Source: Pseudomonadota bacterium
GTDB taxonomy: Bacteria > Desulfobacterota > Binatia > UBA9968
Reading direction: 5' to 3'
DNA length: 64,000 bases
Assembly: GCA_021324155.1 (NCBI GenBank)
Contig: JAJPJQ010000013.1
Location: 1-64,000 of the forward strand
Shown: piece by piece, positions 253-12,493 of the stretch
How positions within the stretch are numbered: the first letter of the stretch is position 1
Layout of the letters: every line of letters begins with the position of its first letter
Notes under the pieces: generated by a model
Database searches by the model: none
Told to the model about the DNA's origin: nothing
The model's input: the letters and a program-made list of their open reading frames with translations, nothing else
Translations under genes and position numbers: made by a program

Positions 253-347
253 TGGCGGAGAAGGGAGGGAGTCGAACCCTCCGGGCACCTTACGATACCC
301 AGACTGGTTTTGAAGACCAGCGCCACCACCGGGCAGCTTCCTTCTCC
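253..347 (-). tRNA. selC: tRNA-Sec (anticodon UCA)
   Basis: On the minus strand, 95 nt fold as a selenocysteine tRNA. The acceptor stem has 8 bp (GGAGAAGG at 340-347 with CCUUCUCC at 257-264), followed by discriminator G and an encoded CCA (253-255). The anticodon arm is CUGGU-CUUCAAA-ACCAG with anticodon UCA (plus-strand TGA at 311-313). A long variable arm follows, and the T-arm is GAGGG-UUCGACU-CCCUC. The 8-bp acceptor stem, UCA anticodon and long extra arm are the hallmarks of bacterial SelC. It shows that the organism decodes UGA as selenocysteine, which matters for the interrupted rhodanese gene at 11007-11708. Confidence 0.96.
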
Positions 348-8612: not shown

Positions 8613-9254
8613 ATGAATGCAATCACAGTAATGGTGACCGGCGCCGGTTTGGGTTGCCTCGCCATGTACGAGCTCGACCCCGAAATGGGGCGCCGCCGCC
8701 GCGCGCTGGCGCGCGACAAAATGGTCAGAATGCAACGCAAGGCGGCCGACGCCGCAGTAGTCGCGGCGCGCGATTTGAGGAATCGCACGCTCGGTAGTTT
8801 GGCCCAAGCCCGCGGTCATATCACGGAAGGCGATGTTTCCGACACGGCGCTTGAAGAGCGCGTCCGGTCGGAGCTCGGATTTTTGGTGCGCTACCCTTCG
8901 TTCATCAATGTGCACGTCGAAAACGGAGAGGTGACGCTCACGGGCCGCGCCTTCACCGACGAATGCGAACAGCTGATCGCCGGCATCCGCGGGTTGCGCG
9001 GGGTCCGGCGCCTACAAAATCAGGTGCAGGCCCACGATCGTGCGGAAGATTTTCCCGGTCTCGAAGGCCAGCAGATAAATCCGAAACCGACCGGTCGGCG
9101 GCTCGACATCATGCAGCAGCATTGGGCGCCGGCGACGCGTCTCATCGTCGGCATGGCGGCGGTTTTCGGCGTCGGCGCGATCGCCTATTGCCTGGCAGCA
9201 AGCAGCAGCGAAGCGCCTGGGTCCGGCAAGACCTTCGCCGAAGGAGTCCGTTAA
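8613..9254 (+). CDS. BON domain protein
   Basis: The 213-residue protein starts with a short hydrophobic segment (ITVMVTGAGLGCLAMYELDP) followed by MGRRRRALARDK, a layout seen in YtxH/BON-type membrane-anchored proteins. A BON domain spans about residues 72-140 (ALEERVRSELGFL, INVHVENGEVTLTGRAF, IRGLRGVRRLQNQVQ). A second hydrophobic helix lies near the C-terminus (LIVGMAAVFGVGAIAYCLAA). BON domains bind phospholipids and occur in envelope-stress proteins. The stop overlaps the next start (TAATG), indicating translational coupling. Confidence 0.8.
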   Translation: MNAITVMVTGAGLGCLAMYELDPEMGRRRRALARDKMVRMQRKAADAAVVAARDLRNRTLGSLAQARGHITEGDVSDTALEERVRSELGFLVRYPSFINVHVENGEVTLTGRAFTDECEQLIAGIRGLRGVRRLQNQVQAHDRAEDFPGLEGQQINPKPTGRRLDIMQQHWAPATRLIVGMAAVFGVGAIAYCLAASSSEAPGSGKTFAEGVR

Positions 9255-10999
9255 TGGTAACCGCGGCCGATGTGCTCGTTAACACGCTGTGTGAATGGGG
9301 CGTGAGCGTCGTGTTCGGCCTGCCGGGCGACGGCATCAACGGCATCATGGAGGCGCTGCGCAAGGAGCGTGAAAACATCCGCTTCGTGCAGGTGCGGCAC
9401 GAAGAATCCGCGGCGTTCATGGCGTGCGCTTACGCTAAATATACCGGGAAGCTCGGCGTTTGCCTTGCGACCTCGGGACCGGGAGGCATTCATCTCCTGA
9501 ACGGTCTCTACGACGCGAAGCTCGACGGCCAACCCGTGCTCGCGATCACCGGACATCACTATCACGACCTGATCGATACGCATGCGCAGCAAGACGTCGA
9601 TTTGGATAAAGTTTATATGGATGTCGCCCTTTACAATGCTCGGGTCATGGGACCGTCGCACGTCGAGGAGATCGCGAATATCGCCTGCCGCACCGCGCTC
9701 GGCCGGCGCGGTGTTGCACATATCAACTTCCCGGTTGATTTCCAGGAGCAGGAGATCGAGGAACATTCGAAGCGAAACGTTCCGGGACACGTTTCGCATG
9801 TCCTCGCGTCGGCGATCGAGCTGCCGCCGGAAACCGCTTTGAAGAATGCGGCCGCGGAGCTCAACCAAGGAAAGCGCGTCGCGATTCTCGCCGGCCAGGG
9901 GGCTCTCGCAGCAGGCGCCGAGCTGGAGGAATCTGCGGAGAAATTGGCCGCGCCGATCGTCAAGGCGCTGCTCGGCAAGGCGGTGGTTCCCGACGATAGT
10001 CCTTACACGACCGGCGCGATCGGCCTTTTGGGCACGAGGCCGTCGCAGGAGGCGATGGAGAGCTGCGATACGCTTTTCATCGTCGGCAGCTCTTTTCCTT
10101 ACATCGAATTCCTGCCCAAGCCGGGACAAGCGCGCGGCGTTCAAATCGACATGGACCCCACACGCATCGGACTTCGTTATCCGGTCGAGGTCGGTCTTGT
10201 CGGCGACAGCCGAGCTACATTGAAGCGGCTCTTGCCGCTGCTCGACCGCAAACAGGACCGAAGCTTCCTGGAAAAAGCGCAGGACGGCATGCGCCAATGG
10301 TGGAAGCTGATGGAAACCCAGGGGACCCGTCCGGACAAGCCGATGAAGCCGGAAGTCGTTGCGTGGGAGCTCGGCAAGCGGCTCGCGCCGGAAGCGATCG
10401 TCTCCTGCGACTCGGGGACGATTACGACCTGGTTCGCGCGGCAGATACCGGCGCGGCGGGGGCAGAAGTTCTCGGTATCGGGAACGCTCGCGTCGATGGC
10501 GAATGCCCTCCCGTACACGATCGCGGCGCAGATCGCATATCCTGAAAGACAGTGCGTCGCGTTCGTCGGCGACGGCGGCTTTTCGATGCTGATGGCGGAA
10601 TTCGCTACTGCGGTAAAATACCGCCTGCCGATCAAAGTCGTAATCGTGAAAAACAACGCCTTGGGGCAGATCAAGTGGGAGCAGATGGTTTTCTTGGGCA
10701 ACCCGGAATACGGCTGCGATCTGCATCCTATAGACTTTGCCGCCATCGCGCGCGCCTGCGGCGGCACGGGCTTCACCGTCGAGGATCCGGCTGATTGCGG
10801 CCGGGTGCTCGACGAGGCGCTTGCCGCTCCCGGCCCTGTCATTGTCGAGGCGGTCGTAGATCCGTATGAGCCGCCGATGCCGGCGAAGGTCACGCTCGAG
10901 CAGGCGACCAAATTCGCGAAATCGCTCGCGCGCGGCGAGCCCGACAGATCGAAGATCGCATGGACGGTTTTGTCGGACAAAGTGCGCGAGCTTATCTGA
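9254..10999 (+). CDS. ThDP-dependent oxidase/decarboxylase, PoxB-like
   Basis: The 581-residue protein belongs to the thiamine-diphosphate enzymes of the pyruvate oxidase/acetolactate synthase class. The Pyr domain has FGLPGDGINGIMEAL and the catalytic Glu in VRHEESAAF (about residue 50). The central domain shows IDMDPTRIG. The PP domain carries FVGDGGFSMLMAEFATA and KNNALGQIKWEQM (about 437-475), the Mg/ThDP-binding motif. The length and HHYHDLIDTHAQQDVD favour a PoxB-type pyruvate:quinone enzyme over acetolactate synthase, but the substrate is not certain. The frame is open 97 codons further upstream. The start at 9254 is chosen because it matches the family N-terminus and forms a TAATG overlap with the BON gene. 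An NDH-2-type dehydrogenase in the same operon suggests a quinone-linked redox unit. Confidence 0.85.
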   Translation: MVTAADVLVNTLCEWGVSVVFGLPGDGINGIMEALRKERENIRFVQVRHEESAAFMACAYAKYTGKLGVCLATSGPGGIHLLNGLYDAKLDGQPVLAITGHHYHDLIDTHAQQDVDLDKVYMDVALYNARVMGPSHVEEIANIACRTALGRRGVAHINFPVDFQEQEIEEHSKRNVPGHVSHVLASAIELPPETALKNAAAELNQGKRVAILAGQGALAAGAELEESAEKLAAPIVKALLGKAVVPDDSPYTTGAIGLLGTRPSQEAMESCDTLFIVGSSFPYIEFLPKPGQARGVQIDMDPTRIGLRYPVEVGLVGDSRATLKRLLPLLDRKQDRSFLEKAQDGMRQWWKLMETQGTRPDKPMKPEVVAWELGKRLAPEAIVSCDSGTITTWFARQIPARRGQKFSVSGTLASMANALPYTIAAQIAYPERQCVAFVGDGGFSMLMAEFATAVKYRLPIKVVIVKNNALGQIKWEQMVFLGNPEYGCDLHPIDFAAIARACGGTGFTVEDPADCGRVLDEALAAPGPVIVEAVVDPYEPPMPAKVTLEQATKFAKSLARGEPDRSKIAWTVLSDKVRELI

Positions 11000-11006
11000 G
11001 GTAGAG

Positions 11007-11708
11007 ATGCAGGTGATCGGACGTGAAGAGGTGCAGCGGTTGACGGCGAACGGCGCCGCGCTCGTGGAGGTCTTGCCCCAAAAAGAATACGAGCGAGCGC
11101 ATTTGCCGGGAGCGATCAGTCTGCCGCTTACCGACCTCTATCCGTTTTCTGCCGACGCCCTCGCCAAGGATCGAGTTACTGTCGTTTACTGCTACGACTC
11201 GCAGTGAGATTTGAGTCGCAGGGCCGCGGCGCGGCTCGATCATATGGGATATAGGCACGTTTTCGCTTACGCAGGTGGAAAAGCCGAATGGATGGCCTTC
11301 GACCTGCCGATCGTTCGCGGTCGGGACTTGCCGCAGCTTGTGTGTGACGTTGTCGAGCGGGATGTGCCGCATTGTCGGCCGCAGGATCCGGTCGGAGTCG
11401 CGCGTAACGCAGCTTACGACCGCGGGATGGATATCTGTCCGGTAATCGACTCCGAAGGGATTCTCCTGGGTCTTTGCACGCGCATATCACTGCACGCGCA
11501 TCCGTCGGTCGCGGTCGAGCTTGTGATGGAGCCGGGGCCGACCACGGTGCGTCCGAGTATGCCGGTGAAAGACGCAGTTAAAATTCTCGAGCGCAAGAAA
11601 GAGCACTCGCTGTTGGTCACAACGCCCGACGGAAAATTGATCGGGTCTCTCAACGACAGAGCCGTTGCATCCGCCCGCGACGGGGCGCAAAAGGGACTTT
11701 CGACATGA
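11007..11708 (+). CDS. Selenoprotein: rhodanese-like domain with Sec at the active site, plus CBS pair
   Basis: Read through the in-frame TGA at 11205-11207, this gene gives one 233-residue protein. Residues 1-66 are the first half of a rhodanese domain (EVLPQKEYERAHLPGAISLP, then VTVVYCYDSQ). Codon 67 is UGA. The frame continues DLSRRAAARLDHMGYRHVF and YAGGKAEWMAF, the second half of the same domain, then two CBS motifs (about 110-225). In this family the residue before DLS-x-RAA is the catalytic Cys of the C-x4-C loop. Here it is UGA, so Cys62-x4-Sec67 is the predicted active site. A stem-loop starts 3 nt after the UGA and tRNA-Sec is in the window. The likely role is persulfide, selenium or redox chemistry gated by adenine-nucleotide binding to CBS. 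It lies 7 nt after the ThDP enzyme and overlaps the next gene by ATGA. Confidence 0.88.
11205..11239 (+). promoter_or_regulatory. Candidate bacterial SECIS stem-loop
   Basis: Directly after the UGA (11205-11207) the RNA can form a 9-bp stem. Positions 11211-11219 pair with 11231-11239 with two G-U wobbles, and the 11-nt loop at 11220-11230 has G as its second base. Bacterial SECIS elements bound by SelB sit within the coding region shortly after UGA and usually carry a G in the first two loop positions. The loop begins 12 nt after the UGA, near the short end of the usual range. Confidence 0.55.
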
Positions 11709-12493
11709 AAACCAAGGATCAGAATTCTGTGCGTCTCGCGGCGATGGGCGATCTCCATTATACGAAAACATCGCACGGACAATTGCAGCCGATATTCGAG
11801 CAGGTCGCCGACAACGCGGATATTCTCCTCCTCTGCGGCGACCTCGTAGACTACGGTCTGCCGGAGGAGACGGAAGTTCTGGCCAAAGAATTATCTGTCG
11901 TGAAAATTCCGATGCTGGCTGTGCTCGGCAACCATGAATTGGAATCCGGCAAGCAAGACGAGGTGCAAAAGATTCTCGCGGCGGCCGGCGTCAATATTCT
12001 CGACGGCAGCGCTTGCGAAGTTCACGGCATCGGTTTCGCGGGAGTGAAGGGCTTCGCTGGGGGATTTGGGCAGCATGCGCTTCAGCCGTGGGGCGAGCCC
12101 CAGATCAAGAAGTTCGTTCAGGAATCGATCGATGAAGCGCTGAAGCTCGAGTCAGCACTCGCCAAGCTCCGCACGCAGCACCGCATAGCGCTCCTTCACT
12201 ATTCTCCCATTCAAGCGACCGTTGAGGGCGAGCCGCAGCCGATTTATCCGTTTCTGGGCTCAAGCCGTCTCGAAGAGCCGCTGAATCGATACAACGTGAC
12301 CGCTGTATTTCACGGTCACGCGCATCACGGGACCCCGGAGGGGCGAACGCAGAGCGGAGTGCCCGTGTACAACGTGGCGATCAAGGTGCTGAGGCAGAAT
12401 TTTCCAGACAAGCCGGTTTTCCGCCTTATCGAGATTCCCGCCGCGGTGCGGGCCGACCAGGGCAATGGGATGAGCCGGGAGGTGCGGCCGTGA
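11705..12493 (+). CDS. Calcineurin-like metallophosphoesterase
   Basis: The 262-residue cytoplasmic protein has the complete dimetal phosphoesterase motif series: GDLH (residues 15-18), GDLVDYG (45-51), GNHE (about 78-81), a lone His in IALLHYSP, and HGHAHHG (about 203-209). The substrate may be a nucleotide, phosphoprotein or phosphodiester and cannot be told from sequence. The ATG overlaps the stop of the rhodanese-CBS gene by 4 nt (ATGA) and its own stop overlaps the next GTG start, so all three are coupled. Confidence 0.85.
   Translation: MKTKDQNSVRLAAMGDLHYTKTSHGQLQPIFEQVADNADILLLCGDLVDYGLPEETEVLAKELSVVKIPMLAVLGNHELESGKQDEVQKILAAAGVNILDGSACEVHGIGFAGVKGFAGGFGQHALQPWGEPQIKKFVQESIDEALKLESALAKLRTQHRIALLHYSPIQATVEGEPQPIYPFLGSSRLEEPLNRYNVTAVFHGHAHHGTPEGRTQSGVPVYNVAIKVLRQNFPDKPVFRLIEIPAAVRADQGNGMSREVRP

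Follow-up and report, generated by a model that had tools for sequence, protein, structure and literature searches.

The active loop of rhodaneses comprises six residues, the first of which is the catalytic cysteine and the last of which is Arg, Thr or Ser in 13 solved rhodaneses; changing this loop-end residue abolished, or nearly abolished, thiosulfate cleavage in the enzymes tested (PMC8533005). Cys-only CxxxxC loops, with Cys at the loop end, occur in BH2092 of Bacillus halodurans (PDB 3nhv, 3o3w; loop YCWGPAC) and in ArsR-rhodanese fusions (loop YCRGPYC). Selenocysteine (Sec) has also been described in this fold. A 2026 review, which catalogues 119 families of prokaryotic selenoproteins, distinguishes five forms among the rhodaneses, with the motifs UxxS, UxxG, CxU, UxxG and UxxxxU; it contains no CxxxxU rhodanese-CBS family, and CBS is mentioned nowhere in it (PMC13188914). 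CBS pairs such as those of CBSX1 and CBSX2 from Arabidopsis, or of AcuB, carry no rhodanese fusion.

The locus described here lies in a stretch of 64,000 nucleotides, hereafter the window, and joins a rhodanese domain whose loop ends in a UGA codon to a CBS pair (Table 1). With its only internal TGA (codon 67) taken as a residue, the frame at 11007-11708 yields a protein of 233 residues and closes with a further TGA at 11706-11708, overlapping the ATG (11705) of the next gene; TGA likewise terminates neighbouring genes (e.g., at 10997-10999). Pfam places a Rhodanese match at residues 8-97, across the internal TGA, and a CBS match at residues 173-223, both far over cut-off, and the residues flanking the TGA read VVYCYDSQ-U-DLSRRAA. 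A preceding sequence-only reading had proposed a single frame with one TGA at codon 67, two sides belonging to one rhodanese domain, and a TGA within the active loop ahead of DLS-x-RAA; re-reading of the frame, the Pfam match and the flanking residues bear out these points in turn. We judge that the UGA is decoded as Sec in a genuine selenoprotein, with Sec at the loop end, at a probability of about 0.93, an estimate built on comparison of sequences.

Table 1. Features of the rhodanese-CBS locus and of the tRNA-Sec gene, in window coordinates.
Feature	Position	Strand	Remarks
Rhodanese-CBS selenoprotein gene	11007..11708	+	233 aa, Sec at codon 67, stop codon included
Rhodanese domain, residues 1-105	11007..11321	+	PF00581, E 2e-13; model pLDDT 95.5; VIA Z 18 to 3tp9 and BH2092, 16 to GlpE
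Cys62 codon (canonical catalytic Cys, residue 1 of the active loop)	11190..11192	+	Invariant in 118/118 and 61/61 aligned proteins
UGA codon assigned to Sec67, at the end of the CxxxxU loop	11205..11207	+	116 TGA and 2 TGC in 118 distinct family members; natural Cys in relatives
bSECIS-like hairpin, GGGCCGC-GGC-GCGGCTC	11221..11237	+	13 nt 3' of UGA; G first in apical loop
CBS pair (residues 108-232), likely to sense adenine nucleotides	11328..11702	+	PF00571; VIA Z 18.7 to CBSX2, 18.4 to AcuB
tRNA-Sec gene	257..347	-	ARAGORN; RF01852, 74.8 bits (gathering score 47)
Upstream neighbour, TPP-dependent pyruvate oxidase/dehydrogenase-like enzyme	9254..10999	+	Ends 7 nt before the rhodanese-CBS gene
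Downstream neighbour, calcineurin-like metallophosphoesterase	11705..12493	+	ATG overlaps the rhodanese-CBS stop

The source genome is equipped for such decoding. Clustered selD, selB and selA genes, with profile scores over cut-off, lie beyond the window on the same contig (68287-72650), and selD (contig C16, 68287-69216; L009) is itself a selenoprotein gene, with an in-frame TGA in the context AAG-U-AAK that fits the UxxK motif of known Sec-SelD proteins (PMC13188914). Together with the tRNA-Sec gene, selA, selB and the Sec-type selD thus make up a full Sec system within one genome, in agreement with the earlier claim of Sec decoding.

The UGA recurs at the same column in relatives. Among 97 related genomes, TGA was found in L015 (full length, approximately 50% identity), L016 and L020, while L017, L018 and L019 carry Cys (TGC) there, as does a natural version from Nonomuraea gerenzanensis. 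In a collection of 84,980 genomes at least 118 loci match a DNA pattern for the UGA motif, with Actinomycetota, Chloroflexota, Thermomicrobiales, Dormibacterota, Binatota and others among the matches listed. Two of the checks proposed with the sequence-only reading, for Cys in the UGA column of homologues and for UGA homologues in other genomes, were thereby answered in its favour, and its broader claim of a Sec-containing rhodanese-CBS protein agrees with the Sec machinery, the UGA relatives and the Cys-column relatives alike. The same pattern had no match in viral contigs, and exact peptide patterns of the window protein, too specific as queries, retrieved no relatives.

Codon usage at this column was counted with a motif pattern permitting TGA, TGC or TGT. 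The ratio of TGA to Cys codons was 42:0 in 396 Actinomycetota genomes (37 of which held a match). The phylum around a Chloroflexi MAG, sampled with 151 genomes, gave 12:0, and 148 genomes from the window's class gave 13:1, which makes 67 TGA and a single Cys over the three samples. A reversed-motif control on the same 396 Actinomycetota genomes gave 0 matches against the 42 of the true motif, so these matches are not due to chance. For 118 distinct family members the count was 116 TGA to 2 TGC. The Cys proteins L017 and L018 are 89-91% identical to their UGA sister L157, in a clade that also holds a Binataceae MAG; as these Cys proteins belong to the window's class, the window genome is probably a member of Binatota. 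Two TGA/Cys changes suffice to explain the family tree; Sec therefore looks ancestral within the set of sequences in that tree. In some actinobacterial genomes the UGA gene is present twice or three times (L106; G134, G341, G352, G354).

The distribution of the Sec machinery across these genomes was also surveyed. Of 50 genomes with the UGA gene, 40 gave a selB match over cut-off; isolates among these 40 include Pseudonocardia sp. N23, three Micromonospora, Rubrobacter marinus and Actinomycetospora lemnae. In nine of the 50 selB was not found and in one more it fell below cut-off; these genomes are mostly MAGs, and four of the ten (G107, G119, G127, G138) hold a strong tRNA-Sec, a combination of strong tRNA-Sec and no selB over cut-off that was also seen in G011 and G021, where selB was not found. 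Two genomes with Cys versions (G055 and G062, 97% and 96% complete) gave no selB match, and their tRNA-Sec scores lie near noise (50.1 and 43.7 bits), while a third, G048, has its Cys version alongside an intact Sec system. As few genomes are involved and selB is common in the window's class (74 of 97 genomes), the co-occurrence in G055 and G062 is suggestive rather than statistical. In G021 the gene copy (L020, 320-382) is broken 19 codons past the UGA, possibly through decay or an assembly break.

A hairpin downstream of the UGA offers a further line of comparison. A stem of the form GRGCNGC / GCNGCTC, or its six-pair core, begins 13 nt past the UGA in all 116 distinct UGA genes; six of six core pairs are formed in 116/116, against 4.5/116 expected when synonymous codons are shuffled by each locus's own usage. 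Positions 20 and 28 covary (C-G in 104 genes, T-A in 11, A-T in one, with no mismatch), and the Ala73 codon changes with residue 76, being GCC with Arg, GCT with Gln and GCA with Leu. Synonymous choice in the stem is frozen, with Ala74 as GCG in 116/116, Arg76 as CGG in 104/104 and Leu77 as CTC in 116/116, and the conserved fourfold codons beyond the stem stay at or below 0.73. These results were unchanged for 26 representatives that share less than 50% identity. The folding energy of the window hairpin is not unusual (z about 0), and as the z-score alone is not significant the case for a SECIS element is a comparative one. The Cys protein L018 has a C-A mismatch at the covarying pair where its UGA sister L157 has T-A, but the other Cys versions still pair, and loss of the hairpin in Cys genes is thus not general. 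On this comparison, the hairpin is shown to be a probable bSECIS directing Sec insertion, and the UGA would be decoded by the genome's own SelA, SelB, tRNA-Sec and SelD under its direction.

An AlphaFold2 model, computed with Cys in place of Sec (pLDDT 95.5), divides the protein into a rhodanese part (residues 1-105) and a CBS pair (108-232). The former matches 3tp9 and BH2092 at a VIA Z of 18 and GlpE at 16, the latter known CBS pairs at 17-19, including CBSX2 (with AMP; 18.7) and AcuB (with AMP/ATP; 18.4). All of the 61 family members aligned match PF00581. No single solved structure spanning both domains was found, the best query-normalised TM among the Foldseek matches listed being 0.49. 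BH2092 thus shares the fold (Z 18) but has Cys at its loop end and no CBS pair, and the ArsR-rhodanese fusions differ in the same loop-end residue and in their regulator domain. CBSX1, CBSX2 and AcuB share the fold of the C-terminal half (Z 17 to 19), a likeness drawn for the CBS pair from its predicted fold.

Among described selenoproteins, TsoB (NF045694), a rhodanese/DsbD fusion-like protein with the motif UxxxxU (PMC13188914), has a rhodanese-type domain and a second Sec spaced like Sec67. Unlike the window protein, it starts its loop with Sec in place of Cys, is a DsbD-like fusion of approximately 572 aa, and lacks a CBS pair. The TsoB model is matched by 43 of the 61 family members at E 1e-5 or better; the window protein, however, reaches 23.7 bits where the cut-off is 805, and its membership was rejected. 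The LYCAU type (NF041203, rhodanese-related (seleno)protein) resembles the window protein in placing Sec close behind Cys in a rhodanese-like loop, but with CxU spacing, a single domain and 126 positions; here too membership was rejected (29.9 bits, cut-off 115). In NCBIfam (release 20.0, June 2026) no model covers the family, the window protein falls below cut-off on all models, and those matched by the 61 members describe rhodanese or CBS families of other architecture. A search of openly readable literature found no paper joining rhodanese, selenocysteine and a CBS domain. Relative to the catalogue and to NCBIfam the family appears new. The main caveat is rhodanese-like selenoprotein form 1 (UxxS, WP_010941598.1, PMC13188914), compared here by its motif: it also has a rhodanese domain, and U67-D-L-S of the window protein fits its U-x-x-S.

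A mode of action can be proposed for the two ends of the loop. Cys62 would accept sulfane sulfur as a persulfide, and Sec67, at the opposite end of the same loop, could then attack this persulfide and release sulfide (or selenide, or another leaving group). A Cys62-Sec67 selenenylsulfide would close after sulfide release, to be reduced by a thioredoxin-like partner. We give this Cys/Sec redox pair roughly even odds. Adenylate binding by the CBS pair may in turn couple rhodanese activity to the energy state of the cell, and the fold of the pair makes such gating, also put forward in the sequence-only reading, about as plausible as not. The fullest version of the proposal, which we advance only tentatively, is that of a large selenoprotein family missed by the sources consulted and present in approximately one tenth of sampled Actinomycetota, Chloroflexota and window-class genomes. 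In it the loop-end Sec, as one half of a Cys/Sec redox pair, might change a sulfurtransferase to a reductase that is gated by adenylates and acts on persulfides or thiol-reactive metals, and a sister family would carry the CxxxxU rhodanese in fusion with a potassium channel. Should this be right, the selenoprotein would be a common one (approximately 8 to 9% of sampled Actinomycetota, Chloroflexota and window-class genomes), could help explain why many of these bacteria retain selenocysteine, and would join Sec at a rhodanese position to a Cys nucleophile, a combination absent from the catalogue (PMC13188914). The persulfide-reducing mechanism would be directly testable in cultured strains.

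The alternative that fares best also accepts a selenoprotein, but casts Sec67 as a ligand for a substrate or metal, such as mercury or organomercurials, rather than as the redox partner of Cys62. It draws on the genomic neighbourhood of a part of the loci. No single operon is conserved across loci, and the commonest neighbour, a DF family (seleno)protein (NF049942), occurs in approximately one quarter of them at most: two queries placed it near the gene in 23 to 29 of about 118 loci listed. MerR-type regulators were found near the gene in 14 loci listed, MerB-like lyases in 5 of 117 and mercury reductase-like flavoproteins in nine. Mercury genes are nonetheless absent from most loci, the window included, where the neighbours are the TPP enzyme and the phosphoesterase; a TPP-dependent pyruvate oxidase-like gene also precedes the homologues L016 and L020. 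We thus regard a ligand role as unlikely, at perhaps one chance in five. The DF family protein is a candidate partner of the Sec rhodanese in roughly one in four or five loci, and the copies seen (L190 475-1050, L163 4586-4936, and others) have Cys at the GCP/ECP/DCP position. On a mobilizable plasmid of Pseudonocardia autotrophica (L163, 3487-5669) the Sec rhodanese lies behind MerR, a MerB-like lyase and the DF protein, which suggests possible horizontal spread with a mercury-type cassette.

The sequence-only reading had Sec replace the nucleophilic catalytic Cys itself, and the position of Sec within the active loop lends this some appeal. The loop of the window protein, C62-Y-D-S-Q-U67, does not support it. 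The canonical catalytic position, the first of the loop, is held by Cys62, as is typical of rhodaneses, and Cys62 is invariant along with Asp64, Sec67, Asp68 and Arg72 across 61 aligned members; Sec67 is the sixth residue, where the Arg, Thr or Ser of solved structures – typical of these, but no requirement for belonging to the Pfam family – gives way to Sec, or in a few members to Cys. Sec67 thus stands in for the loop-end residue and leaves the nucleophile in place. The arrangement is one of Sec at the rhodanese loop end, CxxxxU, with Cys62 the presumptive nucleophile, and a catalytic Sec in the older sense is improbable.

Current annotation favours a different division of the locus, into a short piece of rhodanese that stops at the UGA, followed by a CBS protein re-initiated just beyond it. 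RefSeq splits the gene into 'rhodanese-like' and 'CBS' coding sequences in plasmids of Pseudonocardia autotrophica and P. broussonetiae and lists the CBS half only in Rubrobacter marinus, such that all three annotated plasmid records examined split or halve it, as had been foreseen from the sequence. An in-frame ATG also occurs within 19 codons past the UGA in 82 of 116 genes, and some re-initiation there is conceivable. As an account of the family, two genes are very improbable: the UGA would cut one rhodanese fold at its active loop, leaving a downstream part that starts inside the domain, and the first in-frame start available in the window is a TTG one codon past the UGA. That downstream part is under purifying selection, with dN/dS in close pairs mostly 0.1-0.5 (values for distant pairs being inflated by saturation); Cys takes the place of the UGA in relatives, and the codon is nearly always UGA and then followed by a constrained, covarying hairpin. 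A pseudogene or a sequencing error with a premature stop, for which the broken L020 shows at least that decay occurs in single genomes, has a negligible chance of being correct, being refuted by conservation: 116 distinct homologues from different phyla share this UGA, with frames intact on both sides of it and selection downstream.

The CxxxxU column was also encountered outside the rhodanese-CBS family. Further loci (L021, L022, L025, L026, L027 and L028; 1414-2652 in L022) represent a second family with a UGA at this position, in the contexts CAGPT-U or CASDT-U, within proteins of approximately 405 aa that join a CxxxxU rhodanese to a potassium channel of the two-helix type (PF07885, filter GYGD). 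Several genomes from the window's family carry such genes, as does one from another family of the same class, and a possible hairpin follows their UGA.
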